Shown: positions 11,940-42,790 of the stretch, one piece after another
Position numbering within the stretch: the stretch's first letter is position 1
Layout of the letters: the number at the start of each line of letters is the position of its first letter
From: Thermoanaerobaculia bacterium
GTDB lineage: Bacteria > Acidobacteriota > Thermoanaerobaculia > UBA5066
Direction of reading: 5' to 3'
Assembly (NCBI GenBank): GCA_022071945.1
Contig: JAJVIN010000024.1
Span: 1 to 64,000, forward strand
DNA: 64,000 nt
The notes under the pieces: model-generated
The model's database searches: none
What the model was told of the DNA's origin: nothing
The model's input: the letters and a program-made list of their open reading frames with translations, nothing else
Program-made: the position numbers and the translations under genes

Positions 11940-13388
11940 ATGGAGGCGCAAAGGAACGAGGTTCCCCGAGGTCCTTCGCGCCTCTTCGATGTGGCTCCCG
12001 AGGAGGAGCTCCTCTACAGCATCACGGCGGAGGGAAAGCGGAAGTTCATCCATCCCGTCGTCCACAAGGGCAGGTACTGGAAGATCCGCCGCTCGATGGC
12101 CTATGCCCTCATGGTGCTGTTTTTCGGGTTGCCCTGGATTCCCGTGGGCGGTCACCCGGCGGTCTTCCTCGACCTGGCTTCCCGGCAATTCCACATCCTC
12201 GGCGGCACCTTCCACCCGACCGACAACCTCCTCTTGGCCGCCCTGGGCGTCTCGATCATCATCACGGTCTTTTTCGTCGGCTCGACCTTCGGACGCATGT
12301 GGTGCGGGTACGCCTGCCCCCAGACCGTCTATCTCGAGTTCATGTTCCGGCCCATCGAGATCTGGCTGGAGGGCACGCCCGTCGCGCAGCGAAAGCTGAA
12401 CGCGGCCCCCTGGAGTGCAAAGAAGGCGGCCGTCAAGTCCGCCAAGTGGGCCCTCTGGACTGTTCTCGCGCTCCTGATGGCGGTCACATTCGTTTCCTAC
12501 TTCGTCAGCTGGAGCGCCCTTCTGGGCGACGTCCTGCCGAATCCCGCCGCGAACAAGGCCGTCGTCGGCGTTGCCCTGTTCTTGACCGGGATGATCCTCT
12601 TCGACTTCGGGTGGTTCCGCGATCAGATGTGCACGGTGGCCTGCCCCTACGGGCGGCTCCAGAACGTCATGGCCGACCCCGACACGATCCTCGTGGCCTA
12701 TGACCAGCCCAGAGGCGACCCCAAGACGAAGCTGAAGGACCGGATCGAGGGAGGCACGTACGGCGACTGCATCGACTGCAAGAGCTGCGTCAGCGCTTGC
12801 CCGACCGGCACCGACATCCGCCGGGGGCTTCAGCCCGAATGCATCGGATCGGCGCAGTGCATCGACGCCTGTGACGTCGTGATGGAACGGACCGGCAAGC
12901 CGCCGGGCCTCATCCGGTACACGTCCGAGCGGGAGCAGGCAGGGGGAACTCGCAGGATCTGGCGGCCGCGCGTCATCATCTACCTCGTCCTTCTGACAGT
13001 CGCCTGGGGAACGCTCGCCGCCCTGGTCATCGGCAGGGCCGAGGCCCTCGTGGAGATCATCCGGGGGGGACGCGAGCCGTACCGGATTCTCCCGACCGGC
13101 GAGGTGGCCAACCAGCAGCGGCTCCGGATCACGAACCAGCTGCCCCAGACCCAGAGCTTCACCATTCAAGTCCTCTCGCCTGCCGGGGCGAAGCTCGTCC
13201 TGAGCGAGTCGCCCGTGGTCGTTTCCCCGGCCGAGCTCTCGGCGATCAACGCGGTGACGACCGTCCCGCCAAGCGTGTTTTCCGACGGCCAGGCGGAAGT
13301 GCGGTATCTCGTCACCTCCGACCGCGGATTCAAGAAAGAAGTGAAGTTCCTGCTTCTCGGTCCTTACACGGACTCGGAGGGGCCGTGA
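11940..13388 (+). CDS. ccoG: CcoG/RdxA ferredoxin-like cbb3 maturation protein
   Basis: CcoG is a polyferredoxin needed for cbb3 biogenesis and shown to reduce Cu(II) in known systems. The 482-residue product shows EGKRKFIHP near the N-terminus, several membrane spans, CGYACPQTVYLEFMFRPIEIW, CTVACPYGRLQ and the ferredoxin motif CIDCKSCVSACPTGTDIR followed by CIGSAQCIDACD. A C-terminal periplasmic Ig-like domain (from about residue 380) is also typical. The frame starts at a TTG at 11916; the ATG at 11940 is used here, but the TTG has GGAG about ten bases upstream and cannot be excluded. Confidence 0.92.
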   Translation: MEAQRNEVPRGPSRLFDVAPEEELLYSITAEGKRKFIHPVVHKGRYWKIRRSMAYALMVLFFGLPWIPVGGHPAVFLDLASRQFHILGGTFHPTDNLLLAALGVSIIITVFFVGSTFGRMWCGYACPQTVYLEFMFRPIEIWLEGTPVAQRKLNAAPWSAKKAAVKSAKWALWTVLALLMAVTFVSYFVSWSALLGDVLPNPAANKAVVGVALFLTGMILFDFGWFRDQMCTVACPYGRLQNVMADPDTILVAYDQPRGDPKTKLKDRIEGGTYGDCIDCKSCVSACPTGTDIRRGLQPECIGSAQCIDACDVVMERTGKPPGLIRYTSEREQAGGTRRIWRPRVIIYLVLLTVAWGTLAALVIGRAEALVEIIRGGREPYRILPTGEVANQQRLRITNQLPQTQSFTIQVLSPAGAKLVLSESPVVVSPAELSAINAVTTVPPSVFSDGQAEVRYLVTSDRGFKKEVKFLLLGPYTDSEGP

Positions 13389-13921
13389 GAGTCCGGCAGT
13401 TCCTCTCGGAGTACCGCTGGCCCCTCTATCTGAGCGGGCTTCTCGGCATGGCGATCGCCGCTTACGGCGTCCTCATCTACGTGGCGACGCGGCCGAACTC
13501 TCCCCGTCCGATCCCCAACTACTACGAGTCGGCCCAGAAATGGGACGCCGACGAGGCCGTCGAGGCCGCGAGCCGGCAACTCGGCTGGACCGTCCGCTAC
13601 GAGATCCCGGCTGGAGTCCCCCACATCGCGGGGACCCCCCGGCCCGTCGACATCAGGGTGACCGACCGCGAAGGAAAGGGTGTTTCTTCCCTGAAGGGCC
13701 GCCTCTTCGCCCTCCGGCCGTCGGACCAGAGGCTGAACCAGACCGCGGAGCTCGTCGAACTCCCCCACGAGGCGGGGTGCTATCGCGCTCTCGTTCGCGT
13801 GGACGTGCCGGGAACCTGGGAATTCCGCGTGGATGCGACACGCGACTCCGCGCGGTTCGTCCACGCGGCACGGGTCCCCGTCGCTCCAGATACCCCGGCA
13901 GACGCGGGAGAAGGCAAGTGA
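13385..13921 (+). CDS. ccoH: FixH/CcoH family protein
   Basis: The 178-residue protein has one N-terminal membrane span (about residues 13-33, LYLSGLLGMAIAAYGVLIYVA) and a periplasmic beta-rich domain with VRYEIPAG, PVDIRVTDREGKGV and VPGTWEFRVDA, the FixH layout. It assists cbb3 assembly together with CcoI. The GTG start overlaps the ccoG stop (GTGA) and its own stop overlaps ccoI, so the three are translationally coupled. Confidence 0.82.
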   Translation: MRVRQFLSEYRWPLYLSGLLGMAIAAYGVLIYVATRPNSPRPIPNYYESAQKWDADEAVEAASRQLGWTVRYEIPAGVPHIAGTPRPVDIRVTDREGKGVSSLKGRLFALRPSDQRLNQTAELVELPHEAGCYRALVRVDVPGTWEFRVDATRDSARFVHAARVPVAPDTPADAGEGK

Positions 13922-16434: not shown

Positions 16435-16704
16435 ATGGAGACGGTCTTCGTCCTCCTGCCCCTGGCCCTCCTGATCGCCGGGATCGCGCTCGCGCTCTTC
16501 ATCTGGGCGGTGAGGTCCGGGCAGTTCGACGACCTGGAAACCCCGGCCGTCCGGATCCTCTTCGACGACGAGGCGCCTCCACGGAGAAACGGGAGCGCGC
16601 CCTCGGTACCCCCGCTCTCGCCAGGGGCGAAAGACAACGGCGAGAACTCCAAAACAGACCGGCAAACGACGGAAGCGGCATCGACAAGGAGGGACCCTGA
16701 ATGA
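16435..16704 (+). CDS. ccoS: CcoS, cbb3 maturation protein
   Basis: The 89-residue protein starts METVFVLLPLALLIAGIALALFIWAVRSGQFDDLETPAVRIL (in part), with the GQFDDLE motif that marks CcoS, needed for cofactor insertion into cbb3. It begins directly after the ccoI stop. The C-terminal 40 residues are a polar extension beyond the usual length of about 50-60. Its stop overlaps the actA start (ATGA), which links oxidase maturation and alternative complex III in one transcript. Confidence 0.9.
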   Translation: METVFVLLPLALLIAGIALALFIWAVRSGQFDDLETPAVRILFDDEAPPRRNGSAPSVPPLSPGAKDNGENSKTDRQTTEAASTRRDPE

Positions 16705-17291
16705 GCCGACCGAGTATGTCCGTCCGCATCCTCATCTTGGTGGGAGGCATGGCTGCGGCGGGCTCCCTGGCGTTCGCCCTGAGCAACGCGCGCAGGGGGT
16801 ACGAACCTCGACAGCCCATCCTGTTCAAGCACTCGCGAATGGCAGGCCCCCCTGTCATGGTGAAGAACGACAAGGGCGAGATGGTCAACGCGGGGGGGTT
16901 CAACATCCCCTGCCTCTACTGTCACACCATGCCGTACAAGGGCCGCCACTCGACAGTGCCGTCCACCGCCGTGTGCATGAACTGCCACAGTACCGTGGGC
17001 CTGAACAGGGAGTGGGTTCTCAAGATGAAGGACTACTGGGAGCGCGGAGAGCCGATCCCGTGGGTGAAGGTCCACGACCTGCCCGACTTCGTCTACTACG
17101 ACCACTCCGCCCACCTCAACGCCAAGAACGAGAAGGGCGAGCCCAAGGTAGCCTGCAAGGACTGCCACGGCGAGGTGGAGAAGATGGACGTCGTTCGCGT
17201 CCAGAACGCGTTCAACATGCAGTGGTGTCTGGACTGCCACCGGAAGAAGGAGATGGCGGCCCCGACCGACTGTGTGGCGTGCCACCGCTAG
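16701..17291 (+). CDS. actA: Alternative complex III pentahaem cytochrome ActA
   Basis: The 196-residue protein has an N-terminal membrane anchor (about residues 8-27) and five CxxCH sites (CLYCH, CMNCH, CKDCH, CLDCH, CVACH), with KHSRMAGP, YDHSAHL and FNMQWCLDCHRKKE segments typical of ActA. In alternative complex III it passes electrons from the iron-sulfur subunit toward ActE and the terminal oxidase. It overlaps ccoS by four bases and is followed by actB after 12 bases. Confidence 0.93.
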   Translation: MSRPSMSVRILILVGGMAAAGSLAFALSNARRGYEPRQPILFKHSRMAGPPVMVKNDKGEMVNAGGFNIPCLYCHTMPYKGRHSTVPSTAVCMNCHSTVGLNREWVLKMKDYWERGEPIPWVKVHDLPDFVYYDHSAHLNAKNEKGEPKVACKDCHGEVEKMDVVRVQNAFNMQWCLDCHRKKEMAAPTDCVACHR

Positions 17292-29053: not shown

Positions 29054-30274
29054 GTGAAAAAGACCTGGATTGCCCTGGGGTCAGTCGTCATCCTGGCAGG
29101 TGCTGGAGCCGTTTTCGCTTCGCGCGGAGGCGACAAGCCCGCGGCTCCCACGGCAGAGAATCTCCCCTTCCGTCTCGGGAAGGTCCAGAAGGAAGACCTC
29201 CAGGTGAGCGTCCGCGAGGTCGGCGTGATCGATCCCGAGACCAAGGTCGACGTGAAGTCCGCCGTCTCGGGGCGGATCGTCAGCCTGAAGGTCCGGGACG
29301 GCGCCACCGTCAAGAAGGGAGACCTCCTGGCAGAGGTCGAGCCTGACGTGAGCCAGGCGCAGTCGCTCTCCGAGGTCAAGGCTTCCCTGACCGAGGCCGA
29401 GCTGAAGTTGAGGAACGCGGAGCGCGAGCTCAGGAGTCAGACCGCTCTCTTCGAGAACGGTTTGATCGGCAAGGAAGTCCTCAGGGACTACATCACCCGG
29501 AAAGACCTCGCCGCACAGGCCCTGAAAGCCGCCCAGACCCGCTACCGGATCGTCGAGGACCGCGGCATCCCGATCTCGGGAGACGCCTCGCTGCAGAAGG
29601 CCCGGGTGACGAGCCCGATGACGGGCGTCGTCATCAAGAAGGGGACCGAACTCGGGGAGACCGTCACCTCGGGTGTCTCCTCTTTCAACTCAGGCACGGT
29701 TCTCTTCACGGTCGCCGATCTCGACTCTCTTCTGATTCGCGTGAACCTGAACGAGGTCGACATCGCCAAGGTGCGCGTGGGGCAGCCTGTCCGGATTTCG
29801 CTCGACGCCTATCCGCAGAAGGTCTTCGCGGGCAAGGTCCGGTTCGTGGCGCCCGCGGCGAAGGTGGTCGAGAAGATCAAGGTCTTCGAGGTGGAGATCT
29901 CTCTGGACGAGAAGTCCGAGGTCTTCCACACGGGCATGAGCGCCAATGTCGAGGTCCTGGGAGAACGCCGGGATGCGGCGCTCTCGATCCCGCTCGAGGG
30001 TCTTCAGAAGCGCGATGGAAAGACGGTGGCCTACCGGCTGAAGAAGGGCCTCGCTCCGAAACAGATCGAAGCCGCCAAGGCCGGGCTTTCCGGCCGGTCG
30101 AAGTTCACCTGGCTCTCCGAGAACTGGAAGCAGTATTTCGAGCCCGTCCCGGTCACCGCCGGCATCGCGACGCTCGAGGCTGTCGAGGTCGTGGCGGGGC
30201 TCTCCGCGGGCGACCAGATCGCGCTCGAGGACCCGACGAAGAAGAAGATCGAAAAAGACGACGAGAACAACTGA
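29054..30274 (+). CDS. Periplasmic adaptor protein (HlyD/MacA family) of an ABC exporter
   Basis: The 406-residue membrane fusion protein has an N-terminal anchor (about residues 4-23). A split lipoyl domain follows (VDVKSAVSGRIVSLKVRDGATVKKGDLLAEV and later VTSPMTGVVIKKGTELGETV), flanking an alpha hairpin, then beta-barrel and membrane-proximal domains. The GTG start has AAGGAG seven bases upstream. It would link the inner-membrane ABC transporter encoded next to an outer-membrane channel; no TolC-like gene is in the window. The substrate is unknown. Confidence 0.85.
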   Translation: MKKTWIALGSVVILAGAGAVFASRGGDKPAAPTAENLPFRLGKVQKEDLQVSVREVGVIDPETKVDVKSAVSGRIVSLKVRDGATVKKGDLLAEVEPDVSQAQSLSEVKASLTEAELKLRNAERELRSQTALFENGLIGKEVLRDYITRKDLAAQALKAAQTRYRIVEDRGIPISGDASLQKARVTSPMTGVVIKKGTELGETVTSGVSSFNSGTVLFTVADLDSLLIRVNLNEVDIAKVRVGQPVRISLDAYPQKVFAGKVRFVAPAAKVVEKIKVFEVEISLDEKSEVFHTGMSANVEVLGERRDAALSIPLEGLQKRDGKTVAYRLKKGLAPKQIEAAKAGLSGRSKFTWLSENWKQYFEPVPVTAGIATLEAVEVVAGLSAGDQIALEDPTKKKIEKDDENN

Positions 30275-30305
30275 AGTCTTCGAAAAGCCGGCGAGGAGAA
30301 GCACC

Positions 30306-30983
30306 ATGAGTCGCGTCATCGAAACCCGGAACCTCACCAAGGTCTACGGCTCCAACGGAACGGCGGTGCACGCGCTGCGGGGGATCGACCTCCTCGTCGA
30401 GCGAGGCGAATTCGTCGCCCTCATCGGACCTTCCGGGTCGGGAAAATCGACGCTGATGGCCATTCTCGGGTGCCTGGACAAGCCGAGCGAGGGCACGTAC
30501 CAGCTGGATGGCGAGGCGGTCGAGGGGCTCTCGGGCAGCGCGCTGGCCCGGATCCGCAACCAGAAGATCGGATTCGTCTTCCAGAGCTACAACCTGCTGC
30601 CCAAGGCCTCGGTCCTCAGGAACGTCGAACTGCCCATGCTGTACGGCGGAGCGGGCGGGCGCGAGCGCCACGAGCGCGCGATGGCCCTTCTCGAGAAGGT
30701 CGGCATCGCGGACAAGGCGAAGAAGCTGCCCGCGGAGCTTTCCGGCGGGCAGAGGCAGCGCGTGGCCATCGCGCGGGCCCTTGCCAACGAACCCGCGATG
30801 CTCCTCGCCGACGAGCCGACTGGGGCTCTCGACTCGAAAACAGGAAGCGAAGTGCTCGCTCTCTTCGGCGAGCTGCACACGCAGGGCAACACCGTGATCC
30901 TGGTGACGCACGACCCGTCGGTGGCCGCTCGCGCCCCGCGGCAGGTCGAGCTCCGGGACGGTCTGATCGCCGCGGCGGCCTGA
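30306..30983 (+). CDS. ABC transporter ATPase, MacB/LolD family
   Basis: The 225-residue ATPase has Walker A GPSGSGKST (about 38-46), Q-loop FVFQSYNLLPKAS, signature LSGGQRQRVAIARAL and Walker B LLADEPTGALD, followed by a switch histidine in VTHDPSVAARA. This is the mechanotransmission family that works with FtsX-type permeases. It lies between the adaptor gene and two permease genes and is well spaced for one operon. Confidence 0.92.
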   Translation: MSRVIETRNLTKVYGSNGTAVHALRGIDLLVERGEFVALIGPSGSGKSTLMAILGCLDKPSEGTYQLDGEAVEGLSGSALARIRNQKIGFVFQSYNLLPKASVLRNVELPMLYGGAGGRERHERAMALLEKVGIADKAKKLPAELSGGQRQRVAIARALANEPAMLLADEPTGALDSKTGSEVLALFGELHTQGNTVILVTHDPSVAARAPRQVELRDGLIAAAA

Positions 30984-30990
30984 GGAAGCC

Positions 30991-32241
30991 ATGAGACTCA
31001 ACGGCAAGCTCCGTGAGCGCCTCGCCGAGGCCTGGGTGGAGATCCACCAGAACTTCGGCCGCTCGATCCTGCAGGCCCTCGGCGTCATGCTCGGGGTGGC
31101 CGCCGTTCTCGGTGGCTTCTCGATCACCGACAGTCAGCGGCGGCGCTCGGACGAACTCTTCTCCAAGATCGGCGGGCTCGACAAGCTCAACGTCCAGCCC
31201 ACCGCCCTCGCGCTCGACAGCAACCCCAGCGCGCTGCAGTCCGCCAACCTCGGACTACGCGCCGAGGACGCGCACGATGGGACCCGAATCAACGAGAAGA
31301 ACATCCAGGGAGTCTCGCTGAGGAAGTTCGCCACCGCCCGTGTCCGGTCCCCCTACGCCGACGAGGAGCGCCGTCTCACCGGAGTCGCGGGCGACTTCTT
31401 CGCCCTCGAGGGCTACGAGATCGAGGAAGGCCGGCTGATCTCCGAACAGGATGTCGAGGCCGCGGCCGCCGTTGCCGTCCTCGGGAGCGAGGCCGCCAGG
31501 ACGTTCTTCCCGGGCGGCGACGCCCTCGGAAAGACGATCCGGGCCGGAAACGTCCCCGTCGTCGTCATCGGGGTTCTCTCCGAGAAGGTCTTCCGGTTCC
31601 GCGAAGGTCAGCGGAACGTCTTCCGCTGGCGCAACCGCATCGTCGCCGTCCCCTCCAGCCTCGTCGCGAGGCGGATGCAGGGCGATGCCTACCAGAGGCT
31701 CGACCGTGTCACGTTCCGGATTCCCGACCTGTCCTCCATGTCGGACTTCGCCAACCAGCTGACCGCCACGATCCGGGCCAATCACAGACAGCAGCAGGAC
31801 TTCCGTCTGGATGACGTCGCCGCGCGGATCCGCCGCCAGCGAAGCCAGGGCAACGTCTACAACGTCATCTTCATGCTCTCGGGCTTCCTCTCCCTGATCG
31901 GCGGCGGAATTGTCAACGTCAACATCCAGATGGCGAGCCTGAGGGACCGCGTCCGGGAGGTCGGCGTGAAGATGGCGATCGGCGCCTCGCCCGCGGAGAT
32001 CTTCAAGAGCTTCATGACCGAGGCGCTCCTTTTGACCGCCCTCGGGTCCTCCGCCGGGCTCTTCGTCGGAATCGGGCTCTCGAAGATCATCACGTCCTCT
32101 CTCGGCATCCCGCTCTACATGAACGCCGCGAGCTTCGTCTCGGCGTTCTTCCTCGCCTCGGCGTTCGGCTTCGTCTTCGCCCTCTTCCCGGCCTGGAAGG
32201 CGAGCCGGCTCTCCCCGATGGAGGCCCTGCGTTATGAGTGA
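30991..32241 (+). CDS. FtsX/MacB-type ABC permease, subunit 1
   Basis: The 416-residue permease has the MacB layout: one N-terminal membrane helix (about 28-50, QALGVMLGVAAVLGGFSITDS), a large periplasmic MacB_PCD domain and three C-terminal helices ending SRLSPMEALRYE. The segment REVGVKMAIGASPAEIFKSFM is the conserved FtsX coupling helix. It overlaps the second permease gene by eight bases, so the exporter probably uses a permease heterodimer instead of the usual MacB homodimer. Confidence 0.85.
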   Translation: MRLNGKLRERLAEAWVEIHQNFGRSILQALGVMLGVAAVLGGFSITDSQRRRSDELFSKIGGLDKLNVQPTALALDSNPSALQSANLGLRAEDAHDGTRINEKNIQGVSLRKFATARVRSPYADEERRLTGVAGDFFALEGYEIEEGRLISEQDVEAAAAVAVLGSEAARTFFPGGDALGKTIRAGNVPVVVIGVLSEKVFRFREGQRNVFRWRNRIVAVPSSLVARRMQGDAYQRLDRVTFRIPDLSSMSDFANQLTATIRANHRQQQDFRLDDVAARIRRQRSQGNVYNVIFMLSGFLSLIGGGIVNVNIQMASLRDRVREVGVKMAIGASPAEIFKSFMTEALLLTALGSSAGLFVGIGLSKIITSSLGIPLYMNAASFVSAFFLASAFGFVFALFPAWKASRLSPMEALRYE

Positions 32242-33541
32242 AACCCTCGAGCTCACCGCCCCCGTCGCCGTGCCGGCGAGAGAGAGCCGCCCCCGTTCCC
32301 TGCGCTCGGTCTTCTCGACCGCCTTCCAGACGATCGAGGTCGTTCGCGGGAGCCTGGTCGAGCTCTGGGCCCACAAGGTCCGGTCGCTCCTGACCCTGAC
32401 CCTGCTCATGCTCGGGGTCTTCGCCCTCGTCGTCCTCACCTCCGTCCTCGACGGCGTCATGGACAAGATCTCGACCGGCTTCGCCGGCATGAGCTGGGAC
32501 GGCACGCTCGTCCTGTCGCAGAAGGCTCCCGCCACGAGCGAGGAGCAGAAGCGGTTCGCCATGAGCCCTGGTCTGAGGTACGAGGATCTCCCCCGCCTCA
32601 CCGCTCCGCACCCGAAGGTGCTGGGCTTCCTGCCGCGGGCCTACACGAGAACCCCCGTCCGCATCTCGGGCGGCGCCGAGCGCGTCTTCGTCACGGGCGT
32701 CTCGAGTGACTACGCCCTGCTGATGAACCGGCCGATCGGCAGCGGACGCGGCATCACCGAAAACGACCAGAAGCGGCGCTCGACGGTCGCCGTCGTCGGA
32801 GCCACCCTCGCCTCCAAGCTCTTCGGCGGGGCCGATCCGGTCGGACGGGACGTCCTCATCGAGGGAATCCCCTTCCGCATCGTCGGTGTCCAGGCCGCCG
32901 GCCAGATCTTCAGCGACGAGAACTACATGGACGCCAACGGGTTTCTGGTTCCTCTCGAGACCTACATGGATCGTCTCGACCCCTCCCACAAGCTCGCTCA
33001 CCTGGCCGTGAAGCTCCGGAACCGGGCAGATCTCGACGAGGTGACGGCCCTTCTGATCGGACGCGCCAAGCAGGCGCACCACGGTATCGAGGACATCGAG
33101 GTGCTCGACCTGGAGGGCGAGGCCGCGCGCGAGTGGCAGAACTTCCTCGAGCAGATGCGCGGCTGGAGAGTCGTCCTGATGAGCCTCGCGGCCATCGTCC
33201 TTCTCGTCGGCGGCGTGGGCGTCCTGTCGGTGATGCTGATTTCCTTCGCGGATCGCCGCTACGAGATCGGCCTGAGGAAGGCCATGGGTGCCTCGGATGG
33301 ACAGATCCTCCTGCAGTTCCTTCTCGAGGCCCTCGTCCTGGCGGCGCTGGGTGCGCTCGCCGGAACATTCGGGGCCGCATTTCTCTGCAGAGCGCTCGGC
33401 CATCTCTTCCCGTACGGCCTCGTCGTGAATCCTCTCGGACTCCTGACCGCCTGGCTCTCAGCCCTGGGTTTGGCCCTAGTCTTTGGCCTGTACCCCGCAA
33501 TCCGGGCGTCGAGACTGTCTCCCATGGAGGCGATGCGCTGA
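32234..33541 (+). CDS. FtsX/MacB-type ABC permease, subunit 2
   Basis: The 435-residue protein has the same build as its neighbour: an N-terminal cytoplasmic stretch of about 45 residues, a membrane helix (LLTLTLLMLGVFALVVLTSVL), a periplasmic domain and three C-terminal helices with RRYEIGLRKAMGASDGQILLQF (in part) and a final SRLSPMEAMR. It shares the ending LSPMEA with subunit 1. It completes a four-gene adaptor-ATPase-permease-permease operon. No terminator is obvious directly after it. Confidence 0.85.
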   Translation: MSETLELTAPVAVPARESRPRSLRSVFSTAFQTIEVVRGSLVELWAHKVRSLLTLTLLMLGVFALVVLTSVLDGVMDKISTGFAGMSWDGTLVLSQKAPATSEEQKRFAMSPGLRYEDLPRLTAPHPKVLGFLPRAYTRTPVRISGGAERVFVTGVSSDYALLMNRPIGSGRGITENDQKRRSTVAVVGATLASKLFGGADPVGRDVLIEGIPFRIVGVQAAGQIFSDENYMDANGFLVPLETYMDRLDPSHKLAHLAVKLRNRADLDEVTALLIGRAKQAHHGIEDIEVLDLEGEAAREWQNFLEQMRGWRVVLMSLAAIVLLVGGVGVLSVMLISFADRRYEIGLRKAMGASDGQILLQFLLEALVLAALGALAGTFGAAFLCRALGHLFPYGLVVNPLGLLTAWLSALGLALVFGLYPAIRASRLSPMEAMR

Positions 33542-33765: not shown

Positions 33766-34110
33766 ATGAAGAAGCTCATCGCCACGCTCGTTGCGGTCAC
33801 GATCGTTTCCCTCGGCGCCGCGTTCGCGGAAGAGGCCAAGCCGGCTGCCAAGCCCGCCGAAGCCGCCAAGCCCGCCGCCGCCGCCCCGGCTGCCGAGGCT
33901 GCCAAGCCCGCCGCTGAGGCTGCCAAGCCGGCCGAGGCCAAGCCCGCCAAGAAGGAGAAGAAGGCCGCCAAGAAGGAAGAGGCCAAGCCGGCTGACGCCG
34001 CGAAGCCCGCCGAGGCCGCCAAGCCCGCCGAGGCCGCGAAGCCCGCCGCCGCCGCTCCCGCCAAGCCGGCCGAGGCCAAGCCTGCCGCCGCCGCTCCGGC
34101 CCCCAAGTGA
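33766..34110 (+). CDS. Secreted Ala/Lys/Pro/Glu-repeat protein
   Basis: The 114-residue product has a signal peptide (MKKLIATLVAVTIVSLGAAFA) and then almost only A, K, P and E, in repeats such as AEAAKPA, AAAAPA and a KKEKKAAKKEE block. Such sequence is disordered and strongly basic-acidic, as in histone-like tails or cell-wall linkers. A good ribosome binding site (GGAGGAG) lies six bases before the ATG, and a strong terminator follows, so expression is likely. The opposite strand is also open, but only because of the repeat composition. Function is unknown. Confidence 0.75.
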   Translation: MKKLIATLVAVTIVSLGAAFAEEAKPAAKPAEAAKPAAAAPAAEAAKPAAEAAKPAEAKPAKKEKKAAKKEEAKPADAAKPAEAAKPAEAAKPAAAAPAKPAEAKPAAAAPAPK

Positions 34111-34167: not shown

Positions 34168-34201
34168 TGCCCCGGCGCGATCGCCGGGGCTATTTTTCTT
34201 T
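34168..34201 (+). terminator. Strong Rho-independent terminator
   Basis: GCCCCGGCG and CGCCGGGGC form a perfect nine-base stem around CGAT, followed by TATTTTTCTTTT. It ends the transcript of the repeat protein and is one of the clearest terminators in the window. Confidence 0.9.
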
Positions 34202-34245: not shown

Positions 34246-35142
34246 TCAGTCCCCGAGGGCTGCCGCGATCTCGACTCTCACCACGGGCCCGCTCAGAATC
34301 GACCGGACCAGGTTCGCGGTCGACGCATCACCGAACGTCATCTTGTAGAGCCACGTCGATGTCGAGACACCGAGGGTCTTCACGATCTGCCGGATCGAAC
34401 GGCCCTTCCGGTGCTCTTCCTTGACCAATCCCTCCACCTCGAGGAGCCACTGGAGCTTCCCGTTGATGGCGTCCCTGCCGCCCTCGAACCGGGGCCGGTG
34501 CGCGCAGAGCAGAGCATCGAAATCGAGCGTGAGAAAGCGACGCATCGTCGCAACGGTGTCATAGAAGTCCTCGTCACCTCTGAACACCTTGATCCTCTCG
34601 GCAACGAAGGCGTCTCCCGAGAACAGCCAGCCTTCTTGGGGCACGAAGTACGCCACGTGATCGACACTGTGCCCCATTGCGGGGATGACGCGGGCCGAGT
34701 GCGGCCCCAGTTCGACCACTTCCGCGGCGGCCTGGGCTTCGACGGGATCGGCCTCGCCCCACAGCGCGTGCTGGTAGAACTTCCGCGGCAGACGGTTCCG
34801 GGCGAGTTTCACGCCGTCGGAGGAGGCGAAGACACGCACGCCACGCCCGGCCAGGAGCGCCGCGTTGCCGGAGTGGTCCTCGTGATGGTGCGTGAGGTAG
34901 GCACTTTCGACACGGGCGTCCCTCGCGGCCTCGGAGATCTCGGGAGCGACCGAACTGATCCCGGTGTCGATCATTGTCGAACCAACGACGTAGCAGTAGA
35001 CGGGGAGGACCTCCCGTCCGAAATAGACACGCGTCATTCGGTAGACCGCGATCGAAGCAAACGTCGACCGCTCGAAGTGGTGGGTGGCCGGGAACGGAAA
35101 CCGGGACCAGAACGGATCGAGATAGTGGTAGAGCGGACGCAT
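34246..35142 (-). CDS. MBL-fold metallo-hydrolase
   Basis: The 298-residue protein carries the metallo-beta-lactamase-fold motif THHHEDHSGN (about residues 84-93), a later histidine in AMGHSVDHVAYF, an aspartate in FSGDAF and ALLCAHRP, together enough for a binuclear metal site. The C-terminal region (EEHRKGRSIRQIV) resembles a winged-helix lid as in glyoxalase II/LACTB2-like enzymes. The substrate cannot be told from sequence. It is convergent with the repeat-protein gene and divergent from the NosL operon. Confidence 0.85.
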   Translation of the reverse strand: MRPLYHYLDPFWSRFPFPATHHFERSTFASIAVYRMTRVYFGREVLPVYCYVVGSTMIDTGISSVAPEISEAARDARVESAYLTHHHEDHSGNAALLAGRGVRVFASSDGVKLARNRLPRKFYQHALWGEADPVEAQAAAEVVELGPHSARVIPAMGHSVDHVAYFVPQEGWLFSGDAFVAERIKVFRGDEDFYDTVATMRRFLTLDFDALLCAHRPRFEGGRDAINGKLQWLLEVEGLVKEEHRKGRSIRQIVKTLGVSTSTWLYKMTFGDASTANLVRSILSGPVVRVEIAAALGD

Positions 35143-35315: not shown

Positions 35316-35657
35316 TTGAATCGTCCGGGACACTTCCGCAGACCCCTGCACGCGAGGCTTCGGCCCGTCCAGTTCCTCGGTCTCGTCCTGGGCCTCTTCC
35401 TCCTCGGCGGGGTTCTCATCGTCATCGACCTGGCTCGCAGCCGGGTGAGCCGGACCGAGGCCCTCGAACTGACTCGCACCCTGGGGCTGACAGACCTCGC
35501 TCTCTCGACTGAGGCGAGGTACCTGCGCCACCCGAGCCTCGCCGATCTCCATTCCGCCTTCCAGGATCACCCGGCCTCCCTCGATCACTTCCCCGCCGCC
35601 GCTGCGATCGGCCCGCCGGGCCATCTTCGGCCCGCGCCTCATGCACGCCTGGATTAA
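35316..35657 (+). CDS. Small single-span membrane protein heading the NosL operon
   Basis: The 113-residue product has one membrane helix (about residues 17-38, QFLGLVLGLFLLGGVLIVIDLA) and a periplasmic tail with an acidic-basic patch (RTEALELTRTLGLTDLALSTEARYLRHPS, in part). The TTG at 35316 is taken as start because AAGGA lies six bases upstream; a GTG 39 bases earlier is possible. Its end overlaps the permease gene by 17 bases. No family is recognised. Its place as first gene of a metal-handling operon suggests an accessory role. Confidence 0.6.
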   Translation: MNRPGHFRRPLHARLRPVQFLGLVLGLFLLGGVLIVIDLARSRVSRTEALELTRTLGLTDLALSTEARYLRHPSLADLHSAFQDHPASLDHFPAAAAIGPPGHLRPAPHARLD

Positions 35658-36783
35658 CCGGCAGTCCCTGCTCGTCGACTACACACTGTCGGCACTGGCT
35701 CGCCACGCGGGCCGGAATCTGGCCATCCTCGCGGTCTACTCGTGTCTCGTCTTCGTCCTGGCGTCGACGATGCTGTTTTCCGACGCGCTCCGGCGGGAAT
35801 CGCGGGCGTTGCTGTCTCACAGTCCCGATGTCCTCATCCAGAAGCTCTCCGCAGGACGTCACGCCTTCCTGACTGCCGCCGATGTCGAGCGGATCGGGCC
35901 CCTGCGCGGTGTCAGCCGGATCGAGGGACGCCGCTGGGGCTACTTCTACGATCCGGCGGTACGGGCGAACTACACCCTGATGGCAGTCGCCTCCGATCCT
36001 CCGGCCCGAGGCTCGATCCGCGTGGGAGAAGGCGTCGCGCGACTGTCGGGCCTCGCGAAGGGGAACGCCCTCGCCCTGCGAAGCCCCGAGGGTCCGCTTC
36101 ACGTGTTCACCATCGAAGGGGTGTTCCGGGAAGAGAGCAGCCTCGTCTCGACCGACCTCGTCCTCATGCACCCCGAGGACTGGATCGAGTTCTTCCAGGT
36201 CGCCAGCGATCTCTGCACGGACGCCGCTGTCACTGTCGTCAATCCCGCCGAGGTGAGAAACGTGGCCCGCAAGGTGGCCGAGAGGCTCCCGGGCTCGCGC
36301 GTCGTCCTCAAGGAGGAGATCCTTCGCACCTACGACTCGCTCTTCGACTGGAGAGAGGGTCTCCTCCTTGCCCTGGCGAGTCTTCTGGCGGCCTCGTTCG
36401 CGGTTCTGGCCTGGAACAAAGCCTCCGGCCTGGCGGCGGACGAGCGCCGCGAGATCGGCATCCTCAAGGCCATTGGATGGGACACCCGCGACGTCCTGAC
36501 GATGAAGCTGTGGGAGGGCGCGCTCGTCTCGGGATGCGCCTTCGGAACCGGCCTCCTGGCCGCATGGATTCACGTCTTTCACTTCCGTGCGCCGCTCGTA
36601 GCGCCGGTCCTGGCGGGGTGGTCCGTCCTCTACCCGCGCTTCGATCTGACTCCTTCCCTCGATCCCTGGATGCTCCTGACCCTGTCCTTCCTCACCATCT
36701 TCCCGTACACGCTCGCGACCCTGGTCCCGGCGTGGAAGGCCGCCATCACCGATCCGGACGCCGTCATGCGGGGGTCGGAATGA
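35641..36783 (+). CDS. FtsX-like ABC permease of the NosL operon
   Basis: The 380-residue permease has an N-terminal span (NLAILAVYSCLVFVLASTMLFSDAL), a periplasmic domain of about 220 residues and three C-terminal spans around ERREIGILKAIGWDTRDVLTMK. It ends LVPAWKAAITDPDAVMRG. This is a MacB/FtsX-type mechanotransmission permease. Its stop overlaps the ATPase start (ATGA). In known nos clusters the ABC transporter NosFY works with NosL and NosD; this permease is of a different family but sits in an analogous place. Confidence 0.82.
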   Translation: MHAWINRQSLLVDYTLSALARHAGRNLAILAVYSCLVFVLASTMLFSDALRRESRALLSHSPDVLIQKLSAGRHAFLTAADVERIGPLRGVSRIEGRRWGYFYDPAVRANYTLMAVASDPPARGSIRVGEGVARLSGLAKGNALALRSPEGPLHVFTIEGVFREESSLVSTDLVLMHPEDWIEFFQVASDLCTDAAVTVVNPAEVRNVARKVAERLPGSRVVLKEEILRTYDSLFDWREGLLLALASLLAASFAVLAWNKASGLAADERREIGILKAIGWDTRDVLTMKLWEGALVSGCAFGTGLLAAWIHVFHFRAPLVAPVLAGWSVLYPRFDLTPSLDPWMLLTLSFLTIFPYTLATLVPAWKAAITDPDAVMRGSE

Positions 36784-37460
36784 ACTCCTTCATCGAACTC
36801 GAGGCCATCCGGAAGGTCTTTCACGAGGGGGAGCACAACGAGTTCACCGCGCTCCGCGACGTCAGCCTCTCCTTTTCGCGCGGGAGCCTCACCGTGCTCT
36901 CGGGTCCCTCGGGCTCGGGGAAGACGTCGCTCCTGACCGTGCTTGGCTGTCTCTCGCGTCCGACCGAGGGCCGCGTGAAGGTGGAAGGTGAACTCGTGTC
37001 GAACCTCCCGGAGCCGCTGCTCGCTGTCGTGAGGCGCAGGACGTTCGGGTTCGTCTTCCAACAGTTCCAGCTGATCCCGGGACTCTCCGCCCTGACGAAC
37101 GTCGTCCTGCCCGCGTATCCAACCGGCAAGCCGCATCGAGTCATCGTGGATCGCGGTCTCGCGCTTCTCTCACACCTGTCGCTCGGCCGGCTCGCGCACG
37201 AGAGGGTCGAGCGGCTCTCGGGCGGGGAACAGCAACGTGTCGCCATCGCGCGAGCGCTGATCAACGATCCTCCCGTGATCCTCGCGGACGAACCGACCGC
37301 GAACCTCGATTCGGCACTCTCTTCGGCCTTTCTCCAGACCGCCCGGGAGCTTCGAGACGAGGGGCGGACCGTGATCCTCTCGAGCCACGATCCGAGGATC
37401 TGCGACGCCCCCGAGATCGATCGGCGGATCCGGCTTCTCGACGGAAGGATCACCCCGTGA
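36780..37460 (+). CDS. ABC transporter ATPase of the NosL operon
   Basis: The 226-residue ATPase shows Walker A GPSGSGKTS, Q-loop FVFQQFQLIPGLS, signature LSGGEQQRVAIARAL and Walker B VILADEPTANLD. The start at 36780 overlaps the permease stop and gives a normal N-terminus; the longer upstream frame is a shadow. It pairs with the FtsX-like permease to drive periplasmic or outer-membrane work rather than classic import. Confidence 0.9.
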   Translation: MNSFIELEAIRKVFHEGEHNEFTALRDVSLSFSRGSLTVLSGPSGSGKTSLLTVLGCLSRPTEGRVKVEGELVSNLPEPLLAVVRRRTFGFVFQQFQLIPGLSALTNVVLPAYPTGKPHRVIVDRGLALLSHLSLGRLAHERVERLSGGEQQRVAIARALINDPPVILADEPTANLDSALSSAFLQTARELRDEGRTVILSSHDPRICDAPEIDRRIRLLDGRITP

Positions 37461-38473
37461 TCCTGGACAAGTCGGTCCTCGCCTTGCTCCTCGCCAGCGG
37501 CGCGGGTGCGGCGGGCACGCTGGCGGCGGCTCCGCACGCCCTCGCGGTTCTGAGACGCTGGGACCTCTCTTCTGGAAGCGCCTCTCAGCTCCGGCTGGAG
37601 AGGATGTCGACGCTCGTCTCGACGGGAATGGCCCTGCTCCTTCTCGTTCAGGCGCCGGCTCTCCTCCTCTTCGTCGCCGCGGCGGACGGGATGGCGAGTC
37701 ACTTCGTGGGAGCCATGTGCGCCATCGGTAGCTTGAAGGTCAATCCCTTCGGGTTCCCGGCCCTCATCACCCAGATCGCCGCCTTCTTCGGAACCCTCAT
37801 CTGGCTGGTCCTCAACGCCGTCGACGGCGGGTGCCGCGACTATCCACTCACCCGGGCCAAGCACGGAGTTCTCGTGGCGCTCATCCCTCTGATGGCCGCC
37901 AGCTTCGGACTCGAGATCGCCTATTTCTCGGGCCTCGATGCCAGCGTCATCACCTCTTGCTGCGGCAGCCTGTTCTCCTCGGACTCCTCGAAGGTGGCGA
38001 ACGATCTGGCGTCCCTCCCGGTCCGGATGGCAATCCCGATCTACTTTGTCGTCCTGGCCACGGCGGCTGCCGTCGCGGCAGTGACGGCGTGGCGAGGCCG
38101 CGGCGGGATCTGGCTCGGCCTGGCCGGAGTCGTCGCCTTCCCCGTGGGGCTGGCCGGGATCGTGAGCTTCCTGTCGCTCTACGTCTATGAGGATCCCCTT
38201 CACCACTGTCCGTTCTGCTTCTTGAAGCCGGAATACGGATACCGAGGCTATGCCTTCTACGGAATCCTCTTCGTCGCAACGGCCGCGGCCGTGTCCGCCG
38301 CGGCTCTCGGCCTTCTCTCCCCGCGAGAGAACGCGAGCAGGGACCTTCAGGAGCGAGTCCCCCGGGCCACGCGAACACTTGGCCTCGTCGCGCTCGCTGG
38401 GTATCTCTCCACAGTGGCTGTTTCCGGATGGCAGGTTCTGGCCTCAGGCCTGAAACTCCTCGGTGATGCGTAG
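37457..38473 (+). CDS. Polytopic membrane protein with conserved-looking Cys pairs
   Basis: The 338-residue protein has about eight membrane spans. Cysteines are placed in paired or exposed positions: GAMCAIG, GGCRDY, SCCGS and HHCPFCFLKPEYGY, the last a CxxC next to two histidines. Such sites could bind copper or take part in thiol exchange with the thioredoxin-like neighbour. The GTG start overlaps the ATPase stop and the end overlaps the next gene. No named family is recognised. Confidence 0.7.
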   Translation: MILDKSVLALLLASGAGAAGTLAAAPHALAVLRRWDLSSGSASQLRLERMSTLVSTGMALLLLVQAPALLLFVAAADGMASHFVGAMCAIGSLKVNPFGFPALITQIAAFFGTLIWLVLNAVDGGCRDYPLTRAKHGVLVALIPLMAASFGLEIAYFSGLDASVITSCCGSLFSSDSSKVANDLASLPVRMAIPIYFVVLATAAAVAAVTAWRGRGGIWLGLAGVVAFPVGLAGIVSFLSLYVYEDPLHHCPFCFLKPEYGYRGYAFYGILFVATAAAVSAAALGLLSPRENASRDLQERVPRATRTLGLVALAGYLSTVAVSGWQVLASGLKLLGDA

Positions 38474-38978
38474 GGCACTCTTCCTCCTCGCCGTTCTCGC
38501 CGCCTCGCTGACCTCGTGTTTCGGCGACCGACCCTCGCTGAACGCCGGCGATGGGGCGCCCCGCTTCGAGCTGAAGGGCCTCGACGGCAAGACTGTCCGC
38601 TACCCCGGGGACTTTGCGGGCCGGGCCGTCATCATCCGGTTCTGGGCCGACTGGTGTCCTCACTGCTCGCGGGAGATGAGCGAGATCGACCCCGTGGCCA
38701 TGGCCCTCGAGAAAGAAGGCGTCACGATGCTCGCGATCAATGCTGGACAGAGCGAGGCCACCGTTCGCGCATTCGTCGAGAAGCACGGAATCCACTACCG
38801 GGCGCTCGTCGACGAGAAGGCGGACGTCAACAAGGCGTACGGCGTCATCGTCATGCCGACGACGTTCTTCATCCGTCCCGACGGACGGATCCACAACAAG
38901 GGGATCGGCGAGGCGAAGGCCGCCGTTTTCGAGAAGATGGCGAGAGAACTCGTGCCGTTCGTGACGGGGCGCCCGTGA
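38466..38978 (+). CDS. TlpA/ResA-like thioredoxin lipoprotein
   Basis: The 170-residue protein has a lipoprotein signal (LAVLAASLTSC) and a thioredoxin fold with active site WCPHC in FWADWCPHCSREM (about residues 60-72), followed by PTTFFIRPDGRI with the cis-proline. It should be a membrane-tethered thiol-disulfide or metallochaperone protein in the periplasm, comparable to TlpA/ResA that prepare CuA or haem sites. A GTG three bases upstream is an equal start candidate. It overlaps both neighbours. Confidence 0.85.
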   Translation: MRRALFLLAVLAASLTSCFGDRPSLNAGDGAPRFELKGLDGKTVRYPGDFAGRAVIIRFWADWCPHCSREMSEIDPVAMALEKEGVTMLAINAGQSEATVRAFVEKHGIHYRALVDEKADVNKAYGVIVMPTTFFIRPDGRIHNKGIGEAKAAVFEKMARELVPFVTGRP

Positions 38979-39736
38979 CGCTGTGGCTCGCCGCGCTCAC
39001 GGGACTCCTGGGGAGCGGGCACTGCGTCGGGATGTGTGGCGGGCTCGTCTCGAGCTGCTTTCTGCGATTCGGCGCCGGAGCCCGGAGGCTCTCTCTTCAC
39101 CTCGCCTACCACGGGGCCCGCATTTCGGTCTATGTCCTGGCCGGGGCGCTCGCGGGGGGCTTTGGCCAGCTCGTGACGCAGAGTGGACGCCTGGCGCTCG
39201 TGCAGGGTGTGCTCCAGATCGTCACGGGGGTCGTCGTCATCCTGATGGGGCTCGATGTCCTCGGCCTCCTGCCGTTCTCGATGGCGGTCGGTCTGGCGCC
39301 GGCGTCGTGGACGCGGTCCCTGATCCGGAAAGGCCTGCCCCTTCCGCCCAGCGATGATGCCCCTCAGCCTGCGCCGGACCGGTCGCCAGAGCCGGTTCCA
39401 GGGACTGCCGTTTCCCATCACGCGACGGCGTCGTCCTGGCGGCCGGCGCTGCTCGTGGGGCTGGCGAACGGGCTCATGCCGTGTTCGCTGACCCTGTCGG
39501 TGGCAGTGCAAGCCCTGTCCGCCAAGAGCGCTCTCGGGGGAGCTGCGTTGATGGCGGCCTTCGGTGCGGGCACGCTTCCCTCCATGGTTGCCGTCGGGCT
39601 GCTCTTCTCCCGGCTTTCCCAGGCAGCCCGGGGACTCCTCCTGAAGGCGGCAGCTCTTCTGATCATCATCATGGGCGCCGCACAGATCTGGCAGGGCTTG
39701 ATCTACACGCGCGTCATGGGAAAGCTGGTCCTCTGA
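38975..39736 (+). CDS. TauE/SafE-UreH_2-like membrane protein
   Basis: The 253-residue membrane protein has six or so spans in two halves joined by a hydrophilic linker (about 112-150). Motifs are GSGHCVGMCGGL near the N-terminus and ANGLMPCSLTLSV in the second half, the pattern of the UreH_2/sulfite-exporter-like proteins often found beside cbb3 genes and heavy-metal ATPases. The Cys/Met/His-rich motif suggests metal transport, probably copper. The GTG start overlaps the TlpA-like stop. Confidence 0.82.
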   Translation: MTLWLAALTGLLGSGHCVGMCGGLVSSCFLRFGAGARRLSLHLAYHGARISVYVLAGALAGGFGQLVTQSGRLALVQGVLQIVTGVVVILMGLDVLGLLPFSMAVGLAPASWTRSLIRKGLPLPPSDDAPQPAPDRSPEPVPGTAVSHHATASSWRPALLVGLANGLMPCSLTLSVAVQALSAKSALGGAALMAAFGAGTLPSMVAVGLLFSRLSQAARGLLLKAAALLIIIMGAAQIWQGLIYTRVMGKLVL

Positions 39737-39762
39737 GGGGACAAACGAAAGGAGAACCATCC

Positions 39763-40380
39763 ATGAATCGCCGTAGTGCCATCAAGGCCGCCATTGTGTC
39801 GGCGGCTGCTGTTCCAATGAGTCTTTCTGCCGCGGACACCGTGACCCAGAAGCGCTGCGAAGGCGACGGGACCCCGTCGCAGTTCCTGCCGAAGAACGCG
39901 CCCGATTCGCGTCCCGAGGAGAACGACATCGCGAAATTCCCGAAGTGCCCGTATTGCGGGATGGACCGGAAGGCGTTTCACCACTCCCGGATGCTGATCC
40001 TCTATTCGAACGAGGTGCCGGATGCCACGTGTTCCCTCCACTGCGCGGCCGTCAGCCTCGCCCTGAACATCGACGCGGAACCGAAGGCGATCTGGGTCGC
40101 CGACAATGCCGAGAAAGACGAGCCGAAACCCCTCGTGGAGGCGGTGAAGGCGAGCTTCCTGATCGGGGGCAGCAGTCCGGGAGTGATGACCACCCGCGCG
40201 AAGGCCGCGTTCGGGTCCCAGGCAGCGGCCAAGGCCGCTCAGGACGCGCAGGGCGGCGACATCGGAGGTTTCGATCAGGCTCTCGAAGCAGCCTACGCGG
40301 ACATGGCAAAGGACGTGGCGAGAATCCGCAAGAACCGCGAGGAGAGGCGAAACCGGATGAAGGCCATGCCGAAAGGTTGA
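39763..40380 (+). CDS. NosL-like exported protein 1
   Basis: The 205-residue protein has a twin-arginine-like signal (MNRRSAIKAAIVSAAAVPM). The core carries FPKCPYCGMDRKAFHHSRM and ATCSLHCAAVSLALN, and WVADN, related to the NosL CxxCGM metal site. The C-terminal 60 residues form a basic helix absent from ordinary NosL. NosL binds Cu(I) and delivers it to nitrous-oxide reductase in known systems. AGGAG lies nine bases before the ATG. It is immediately followed by a second NosL-like gene. Confidence 0.75.
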   Translation: MNRRSAIKAAIVSAAAVPMSLSAADTVTQKRCEGDGTPSQFLPKNAPDSRPEENDIAKFPKCPYCGMDRKAFHHSRMLILYSNEVPDATCSLHCAAVSLALNIDAEPKAIWVADNAEKDEPKPLVEAVKASFLIGGSSPGVMTTRAKAAFGSQAAAKAAQDAQGGDIGGFDQALEAAYADMAKDVARIRKNREERRNRMKAMPKG

Positions 40381-40384
40381 TGCG

Positions 40385-40876
40385 ATGGAGAGGCGCCACT
40401 TCCTTCTGTCCGGCGTTTCCGTGGTCCTCGCCTCCTGGGCCCAGGGCGCCGATCGCCCCATCTCGAAACCGGGCCCGAAGGACGTCTGTCCGGTCTGCGG
40501 AATGCTCGTCGCCAAGTACGCGAACTGGATCGCCATCGTCGAAGACAAGGATGGAACGGCTCTCTTCTTCGACGGGCCCAAGGACATGTTGAAGTACGTG
40601 TTCAACCCGGCGAAGTACCGGCCCGGCCGGAGTGCCTCGGGCATCACGCGGATCTGGGTGACCGAGTTCTACGGCCTGACCCGGATCGACGCCCGAAAGG
40701 CGCTCTACATCTCTGGCTCGGACGTCCTGGGACCGATGGGTCACGACTTGGTCCCGCTCTCGACACGCGCTGAGGCAGAGGAGTTCCTGCGGGATCACAA
40801 GGGCCGCCGCATCTACTCGTTCGACGAGATCCCCCGCGACCTTCCCGCAAAGCTGGACGCTGGACGCTTCGAATAG
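40385..40876 (+). CDS. nosL: NosL family protein 2
   Basis: The 163-residue protein has a twin-arginine-like signal (ERRHFLLSG) and the NosL core: DVCPVCGMLVAKYANWIA, LFFDGPKDMLKYVF, WVTEFYGL and AEEFLRDHKGRRIYSFDEIP (in part). The Cys-x2-Cys-Gly-Met motif is the expected Cu(I) site. No lipobox is seen, unlike classic NosL lipoproteins. It ends the eight-gene operon; nosZ is not in the window, so the client is unknown, perhaps a cbb3 or other copper enzyme. Confidence 0.82.
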   Translation: MERRHFLLSGVSVVLASWAQGADRPISKPGPKDVCPVCGMLVAKYANWIAIVEDKDGTALFFDGPKDMLKYVFNPAKYRPGRSASGITRIWVTEFYGLTRIDARKALYISGSDVLGPMGHDLVPLSTRAEAEEFLRDHKGRRIYSFDEIPRDLPAKLDAGRFE

Positions 40877-41201: not shown

Positions 41202-41945
41202 CTATCGGCGTCCGCGTCCATTCCCGCCGCAGCCCGTCAGGAGCACATCCACCGGCTCTCCCTCGGCGTCGTAGAGGACCTGTTTCTCCATGGCGGACGC
41301 AACGATCGCCTCGTACTCGGCAGGTCCCAGGAACTGCGGGGAGTAGGTGATGCCCAGACCCGCCAGCTGTGCCACGAAGGCCCGGAGGTGGTTCCGTGAG
41401 CCCTTCGCCAGGTTCTGGCTGAGGGTGTCGATGTCCGCGTTGTCAGATTCGGACAGCATCCGCTCGACGTCGGCGATGTCGAGGTCCTCTATGGTGGCGC
41501 CCACTGTCAGGGCACTCGTCAGGCTGGCGACGCCGTTCGCGAGGAGACTGTCGTAGAGAGCCTGGAGGCGAGCGTTGGTGAACGCGCCGGGAGCCTTGCC
41601 TTCCGCCGGATCCGGGAGGGCGTACCTGTCGAGCAGGACCTTCACCGCGTCCATGTGCGCCTGTTCAGCGGCCGCGATGTTCGTGAACGTCCGCTGGCCC
41701 CACTTCGCCGCCAGAGCGATGTAGGCGTCACGGGCGAGCTTCTCCTCCTCTCGTACGAACTGGAGGCTCTCGGCTTCTGACTGGGTCAGCGGTTCGACCG
41801 GAAGCGATTCGAGATAGGCAATCAGGGCGTCGCAGGGCGCGGGCTCCGGAGGCGGGGCTGGCTTGCCCTTCCCCGCGGCGGCCAGGGGGCTTCCCACGGC
41901 AAGTGTCAGTGCCAGTGTGAGGGTACGGGTGAGAGACTTCTTCAT
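41202..41945 (-). CDS. Secreted ferritin-like DUF2202 protein
   Basis: The 247-residue protein has a signal peptide (about residues 1-24) and a four-helix ferritin-like DUF2202 domain with metal-ligand motifs REEEKLARDAY, NIAAAEQAHMDAV and NLAKGSRNHLRAF. Iron or oxygen-radical handling in the periplasm is likely by fold; the reaction is unknown. The C-terminus ends GCGGNGRGRR. The gene lies 137 bases downstream of the Gly-rich secreted protein gene on the same strand, so the two may form an operon. Confidence 0.82.
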   Translation of the reverse strand: MKKSLTRTLTLALTLAVGSPLAAAGKGKPAPPPEPAPCDALIAYLESLPVEPLTQSEAESLQFVREEEKLARDAYIALAAKWGQRTFTNIAAAEQAHMDAVKVLLDRYALPDPAEGKAPGAFTNARLQALYDSLLANGVASLTSALTVGATIEDLDIADVERMLSESDNADIDTLSQNLAKGSRNHLRAFVAQLAGLGITYSPQFLGPAEYEAIVASAMEKQVLYDAEGEPVDVLLTGCGGNGRGRR

Positions 41946-42082: not shown

Positions 42083-42469
42083 TCAGCGGGGGCCGTTCGA
42101 ACCGTTTCCGTTGCTGTTGCCGGTCCCGTCGCAGGTGCCGGTACCCGTTCCCGCGCCGTTGCCCGAGCCGTTTCCGTTGCCCGAGCCAGCGCCCCAGCCC
42201 GTGCCGTCCCTCGGACCGGTCCCGTCGTTCCCGGTTCCGTCGCCGGGCCCCCAGTTCTTCGCCTTGCCCTGGGCACTGCCACTCGCCTTCCCGGCGGTGC
42301 TTGCGCCGGGAGTGTAGTTGCAGCTGGAGCCGGACATGGGGCCCGCTCCCGCGCTCCCGTTCCCCGACCCCTGGCGGCGCCCCGCCGCGGCGGCCGGCAG
42401 CGCGAGCGAGCCGGTCAGGATGAGGGCGAGCGTGACGACGACGGCGCTCTTGTTGGTGTTGTTCAGCAT
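42083..42469 (-). CDS. Secreted Gly/Asn/Thr-rich small protein
   Basis: The 128-residue product starts MLNNTNKSAVVVTLALILTGSLALPAAAA, a clear signal peptide, followed by a sequence dominated by G, N, S, T and D with a repeated GDGTGNDGTGPRDGTG pattern. Two cysteines (in SSCNY and TCDGT) could pair. Asp/Gly spacing resembles calcium-binding repeats, but this is only suggestive. The ATG at 42469 has GGGAG nine bases upstream; the longer frame upstream is not needed. It precedes the DUF2202 gene. Confidence 0.7.
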   Translation of the reverse strand: MLNNTNKSAVVVTLALILTGSLALPAAAAGRRQGSGNGSAGAGPMSGSSCNYTPGASTAGKASGSAQGKAKNWGPGDGTGNDGTGPRDGTGWGAGSGNGNGSGNGAGTGTGTCDGTGNSNGNGSNGPR

Positions 42470-42790
42470 TTTCGTTTCTCCCTTCTCAATCGCCCGGATT
42501 CTCCCGGGTCGTTGGCCGGTTGGTTTCAATAGTGATGCCAGCCCGTGGAGCGATGCCTCAAAGAGTCGCGAACCCGCATTCCACGCGGCCCCGCACTCTC
42601 ACTGTAACTTCGGCACTACCAGCGAGATGACTGCAAGATTTGCAGTCTGCGGCAATAGGACCCAACAGTCGTGTCGAATGGACCCACCCTCCGCGCGACG
42701 AGACGTCTTGGCCTTGCGGCGAGGGCGGCGGAGGCCGGAGAGGGACGGGAGGGTGCTGGACGCGGAACGGCCTTCCCGTAGACTTCCGGC
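42470..42790. other. Divergent intergenic region with a strong palindrome
   Basis: These 321 bases hold no convincing gene. They separate the minus-strand Gly-rich/DUF2202 pair from the plus-strand membrane protein. The part from about 42595 to 42665 is AT-richer and holds the palindrome listed separately. Confidence 0.5.
42629..42647. promoter_or_regulatory. Perfect 19-bp palindromic site
   Basis: GACTGCAA-GAT-TTGCAGTC is a perfect eight-base inverted repeat with a three-base centre, about 160 bases from each of the divergent start codons. The form is that of a dimeric regulator's operator. The binder is unknown. Confidence 0.5.

Follow-up and report, generated by a model that had tools for sequence, protein, structure and literature searches.

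A conserved NosL/FtsX-type ABC operon, apart from nitrous-oxide reductase, as a candidate periplasmic copper-handling system in a Thermoanaerobaculia bacterium

The DNA analyzed here (the window) is a stretch of 64,000 nucleotides from contig JAJVIN010000024.1 of a Thermoanaerobaculia bacterium (phylum Acidobacteriota). An ORF listing combined with a Pfam search of the window placed eight ORFs, g1 to g8, on the plus strand at positions 35316-40876 (Table 1). Neighboring ORFs overlap by 17 bp (g1/g2), 4 bp (g2/g3), 4 bp (g3/g4), 8-11 bp (g4/g5) and 4 bp (g5/g6) or are separated by 26 bp (g6-g7) and 4 bp (g7-g8), and the preliminary description of eight genes that overlap or lie less than 30 bases apart was thus confirmed, all being on one strand. 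The gene products it had named were also recovered, namely a single-span protein (one transmembrane segment in g1), an FtsX-type permease with its ATPase (Pfam FtsX and ABC_tran) and a polytopic protein in which both the HHCPFC and the SCCGS motif are present (g4). Since both flanking genes, a metallo-beta-lactamase gene at 34246-35142 on the 5′ side and a DUF2202 gene at 41202-41945 (minus strand) on the 3′ side, lie on the opposite strand, the operon is bounded as a unit. A promoter scan found no sigma-70-like site for it. Just upstream, at 29054-33541, are genes for a MacA-like membrane-fusion protein, an ABC ATPase and two MacB-type permeases, a second FtsX-type system that an opposite-strand gene separates from the operon. 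Behind a short ORF with Ala/Lys/Pro repeats and a signal-like start (33766-34110), a strong terminator-like hairpin occupies 34169-34190; beyond the DUF2202 gene, the opposite strand carries a secreted ORF rich in Gly and Thr (42083-42529, minus).

Table 1. Positions in the window and characteristics of the eight genes of the operon.
Gene	Position	Strand	Description
g1	35316..35657	+	small single-span protein, 113 aa, one TM 21-39, conserved periplasmic tail
g2	35641..36783	+	FtsX-type permease, Pfam FtsX 35.5 bits
g3	36780..37460	+	ABC ATPase, MacB/FtsE/LolD class, Pfam ABC_tran 105.9 bits
g4	37457..38473	+	polytopic membrane protein, 338 aa, with HHCPFC and SCCGS
g5	38463..38978	+	TlpA/ResA-like thiol-disulfide lipoprotein, CPHC
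g6	38975..39736	+	DsbD_2-family membrane protein with GHCVGMCGG, Pfam DsbD_2 149.1 bits
g7	39763..40380	+	NosL-family, CxxCGM and CSxHC, conserved M142, Tat-like N-terminus
g8	40385..40876	+	NosL-family, CxxCGM, conserved M118 and H138, Tat-like N-terminus

The AlphaFold2 model of g2 (pLDDT 88.6) matched LolE, MacB, HrtB and YbbP in a Foldseek search (E down to 1.4e-15), and the best NCBIfam models for g3 were those of MacB, FtsE and LolD, all scoring below cut-off. Based on the modeled FtsX-type permease fold and the partner ATPase, g2-g3 can be assigned to the type VII (LolCDE/MacB/HrtB-like) ABC transporters. The likeness to LolCDE, MacAB and HrtBA lies in the fold of g2 and the class of g3, whereas the scores are below the NCBIfam cut-offs for LolCE (38.9 vs. 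362), LolD (168 vs. 308), MacB and FtsE, and the partners here are NosL and the Cys/His-rich g4. Neither are the marks of MacAB-TolC, an ATPase fused to MacB and a MacA partner, found, since g2 and g3 are separate ORFs and the operon holds no adaptor. By analogy with the family, from which its mechanism is taken, the g2 fold supports a transporter acting on periplasmic or membrane-bound cargo.

The TlpA-like lipoprotein of the preliminary description was upheld, as g5 is of the AhpC-TSA/ResA type (Pfam AhpC-TSA 93.1 bits; ResA the best NCBIfam model) with a lipobox-like Cys at residue 19 as read from the sequence. The UreH_2/TauE-like assignment of g6 stood in part: the GHCVGMCGG motif is present and the family is DsbD_2 rather than TauE proper. 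In the Methylocaldum relative of g6 (L113:6110-7525), the DsbD_2 part is preceded by an HMA copper-binding domain and followed by a cupredoxin domain within one fused protein. The two remaining proteins had been called NosL-like and Tat-type, and indeed both exceed the Pfam NosL (PF05573) gathering cut-off of 24 (g7, 38.4 bits; g8, 96.3 bits) and have Tat-like N-termini; a whole-genome search found these two as the only NosL proteins above cut-off in the genome. Residues C62, C65, M67, C90, C94 and M142 of g7 are invariant in 40 relatives, and among 78 relatives of g8, C35, C38 and H138 are kept in 100% and M40 and M118 in 99%. Cu(I) binding by NosL has been linked to a CXM/CXXCXM motif and a second conserved Met (PMC6530538). 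Both g7 and g8 retain these copper-ligand residues, CXXCXM as well as the second Met, and are predicted to bind Cu(I).

Two of the operon's proteins, g1 and g4, represent families that are described in none of the libraries searched. For g1, Pfam gave only a chance match that stayed below threshold, and no NCBIfam family was matched. Its tail follows the consensus LTDL.L.TEARY.RH......D......FQD.P....HFP, and in 84 homologs from related loci D60, T65, A67, R71, P86 and P93 are invariant with H91 kept in 96%. No Pfam or NCBIfam family was matched by g4 either; an alignment of 94 homologs showed M87-C88, C168-C169 and H249-H250-C251 to be invariant and C254 nearly so. The g4 AlphaFold2 model is confident (pLDDT 91.2), and a structure search with it returned no PDB fold match at E ≤ 0.001, while its sequence had no PDB relative better than E 0.12. 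CcmF, at rank 9 of the PDB fold search with a TM of 0.31, was not usable as the fold of g4. The conserved cysteines of g4 could be redox-active instead of metal-binding. In a quick tree of g4, the window sequence sits on a long branch.

When GTDB species genomes were scanned once with the g4 alignment, 505 g4 relatives emerged, 80 of which were kept. The carriers include deltaproteobacteria, Nitrospirota, Acidobacteriota, Methylococcales and others. Among the 78 loci whose upstream flank spans 3.6 kb or more, g1-g2-g3-g4 occurred in this order in 74, and NosL lay within 5 kb in 71; the commonest order was NosL-g1-g2-g3-g4. Based on these comparisons, the core of the module can be set at five genes (NosL, g1, g2, g3 and g4), which recurs far beyond the window genome. 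A gammaproteobacterial locus (L096) carries all of g1-g8 in the same order as the window, and in Methylococcales almost the same genes are arranged as g6-g1-g2-g3-g4-g8-g5-g7. The conservation of gene order that the preliminary description had set as a check was thus found, the order not being confined to this genome; the eight genes form a real and widely shared bacterial module. Because the order is shared between phyla, the eight-gene arrangement is not a chance one. Within the phylum the distribution of g4 is patchy, because relatives were found in 15 of 396 Acidobacteriota genomes, the window genome counted, and in none of the three listed same-family relatives of the window genome.

Two loci, L034 and L035, are divergent relatives of the module, with no g1 match in either and no separate g2 match in L034. 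Loci of family f35, which we tentatively label Geothrix-like, mostly show only the five-gene core; in two of them (L021 and L027), the core adjoins opposite-strand heme-biosynthesis genes that read as hemL-, hemE- and hemN-like. In the open-access literature, we found no description of an FtsX-NosL-g4 module, and within that open-access literature there was also no link between the Sir/Mcc octahaem sulfite reductase and this gene set. By reading, no Sir/Mcc-type octahaem cytochrome was recognized among the loci read.

The neighborhoods of the module were examined for copper proteins. CusB-type adaptors, CusA, SCO1 and TlpA/DsbD_2 are recurrent neighbors, with a CusA match, some partial, beside the module in 30 loci and SCO1 in 12. 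Counted over the 54 well-flanked loci, CusA/CusB was found in 17, SCO1 in 10 and TlpA/DsbD_2 in 9, and 20 had none of the tested neighbors (CusA, SCO1, TlpA, DsbD_2). With the CusA/CzcA model, a neighbor scores 1072.7 bits (cut-off 701). Three Met aligned to M573/M623/M672 of E. coli CusA, which we take to be its copper/silver site, are conserved in every one of the 27 CusA proteins above 800 aa. The P-ATPases beside L096 and L099 exceed the cut-off of the copper model and contain the CPC, YN and MxxSS motifs, presumably the marks of the Cu(I) class. A copper role is supported independently by what these neighbors are predicted to be: CusBA, SCO1, copper-type P-ATPases and HMA/cupredoxin fusions. 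The window's own operon contains no CusBA, SCO1 or copper ATPase. Although CusCBA copper/silver efflux is encoded alongside the module in about a third of the relatives, with the three-Met site of CusA kept, it differs from the module, which is a separate ABC system, and no CusA RND protein is found in the window's operon.

The preliminary description had suggested a dedicated metal-delivery route, perhaps to the cbb3 oxidase. A complex through which NosL copper reaches a membrane or exported enzyme, here the cbb3 oxidase, would agree with the cbb3 cluster at 8725-17291, about 20 kb upstream of the operon, where CcoN and CcoO are fused in one ORF (COX1 and FixO domains) and are accompanied by a CcoG-like protein, a cytochrome c7-family protein and a CcoI-type copper ATPase whose N-terminus holds a metal-binding domain. 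It would also agree with the SCO1 genes that adjoin the module in the well-flanked loci counted above and with the heme-copper oxidase-family match in the window genome and in all 13 phylum relatives that are at least 90% complete. However, the cbb3 cluster already has its own copper ATPase, and 16 of 50 module-bearing genomes had no ccoN-family match to a model that also picks up weak superfamily relatives. No CuA-type COX2 match was found in 15 of these 16 either, the L063 genome having no ccoN match but two weak CuA-type COX2 matches. Of the 16 genomes without a ccoN match, 14 have CusBA next to the module, vs. 6 of the 34 with one (Fisher p 3.5e-6, with kinship ignored and many of the genomes being incomplete MAGs). 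Since 16 of the 50 genomes had no match and 14 of these have CusBA alongside, it is unlikely that heme-copper oxidases are what the module generally serves; the cbb3 oxidase was not borne out as its general client, and we regard enzyme loading as an unlikely, if still serious, account of the operon. Efflux is the commonest visible partner of the module in anaerobes, and a role in export or detoxification is no less probable than one in enzyme loading, because the CusBA efflux pump is the partner in many relatives. The delivery idea therefore stands as a copper-handling system distinct from NosDFY and is weakened where it concerns loading of the cbb3 oxidase.

That the operon encodes a type VII ABC system with a different substrate or task (heme, a lipoprotein or periplasmic thiol-redox work), and that NosL has another role in it, appears improbable to us. 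It would fit the resemblance of g2 to LolCDE and HrtB as well as MacB, its fold matches including the HrtB of HrtBA, a heme exporter, and it would fit the thiol-redox proteins g5 and g6 and the heme-biosynthesis genes that flank Geothrix-like loci, but the recurring neighbors of the module are copper proteins of several independent kinds, and the copper ligands are kept in both NosL proteins.

The operon had been described as being without nitrous-oxide reductase, which is true of the operon and of the 64-kb window, where nosZ is absent, including from just outside the operon; a whole-genome search located nosZ on another contig (G000:C3:196924). The nos cluster there is complete (G000:C3:192156-201592; L020:4157-13593, minus strand) and encodes a Rieske-like protein, cytochrome b, cytochrome c, NosZ, a NosB-like membrane protein, NosD (142.6 bits), an ABC ATPase (NosF), a divergent NosL-like lipoprotein (21.2 bits, cut-off 24; CAACRM) and an ABC-2 permease (NosY). 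Because NosZ has its own copper set on this contig, the window operon is a second system, different from the nos cluster of the genome. Pfam found no NosD-family match among the eight operon proteins, and Pfam together with the structure search bore out the earlier remark that NosD is missing and that the permease is FtsX-type, not an ABC-2 NosY. Co-occurrence with nosZ, also proposed as a check, was found in 0 of 14 other g4-bearing genomes of the phylum and in 2 of 50 elsewhere (2 of 64 in all). That the operon acts in trans as an accessory of the NosZ on the other contig is thus very improbable and was rejected, for although nosZ occurs in both genomes with the eight-gene order, the window's and that of L096, the gene is missing in 62 of the 64 other module-bearing genomes, and both nos clusters include a NosL-like ORF of their own, accompanied in the window genome by NosD, NosF and NosY.

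We therefore lean, with modest confidence, towards the operon encoding an ATP-driven periplasmic copper-handling machine that is separate from nitrous-oxide reductase maturation. The best reading, by analogy, is a Cu(I) capture-and-handover system similar to NosDFY-NosL, which serves CuZ assembly of nitrous-oxide reductase, yet distinct from it. Both combine a NosL copper chaperone with an inner-membrane ABC ATPase/permease and periplasmic copper, whereas the module has no NosD beta-helix protein, an FtsX/type VII permease in place of the ABC-2 NosY, the extra families g1 and g4 and no association with nosZ. In Parageobacillus, a NosL and NosDFY locus without NosZ has been proposed to serve another recipient (PMC13068155); it resembles the module as a NosL-ABC copper relay without nosZ but keeps NosD and NosFY and is not FtsX-type.

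In the proposed copper machine, the exported NosL proteins g7 and g8 would bind Cu(I) through their CxxCxM sites, and g2-g3 would turn cytosolic ATP into periplasmic conformational work in the manner of LolCDE/MacAB, no copper being pumped through the membrane. The Met-Cys, Cys-Cys and His-His-Cys sites of g4, together with the anchored tail of g1, would offer a copper relay or docking surface at the membrane, and the TlpA-like g5 and the DsbD_2 protein g6 may hold the relay cysteines reduced. The copper recipient would differ by organism, with CusBA efflux in many anaerobes and, in other carriers, cuproenzymes linked to SCO1 or of other kinds. What the analysis shows is the gene content, its conservation, the domain families, the kept copper-ligand residues, the copper-type neighbors and the independence from NosZ; what we infer is that g4 binds copper, in which order the relay runs, which way the copper moves and which client receives it in the window organism.

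It is plausible, and we put it forward tentatively, that the module stands for an undescribed class of copper machine, in which a mechanotransmission (type VII) ABC transporter with NosL and the new families g1 and g4 extracts periplasmic Cu(I). If so, such a machine would route Cu(I) to efflux or cuproenzymes across several phyla, and its reach would include anaerobes without heme-copper oxidases as well as methanotrophs; sulfate reducers, Geobacter relatives, Geothrix-like Acidobacteriota and methanotrophs would share an ATP-driven periplasmic copper system. It would also account for NosL genes in organisms unable to reduce nitrous oxide, and nosL would then be a trap when denitrification is annotated. 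The module further offers two uncharacterized conserved families, one of which (g4) has a confident model and no solved fold counterpart. Elsewhere in the window, at 5113-8300 on the minus strand, a single ORF joins a predicted ArsP_1 permease to a Band_7/SPFH domain, and a second SPFH gene comes next, which is an unusual combination.
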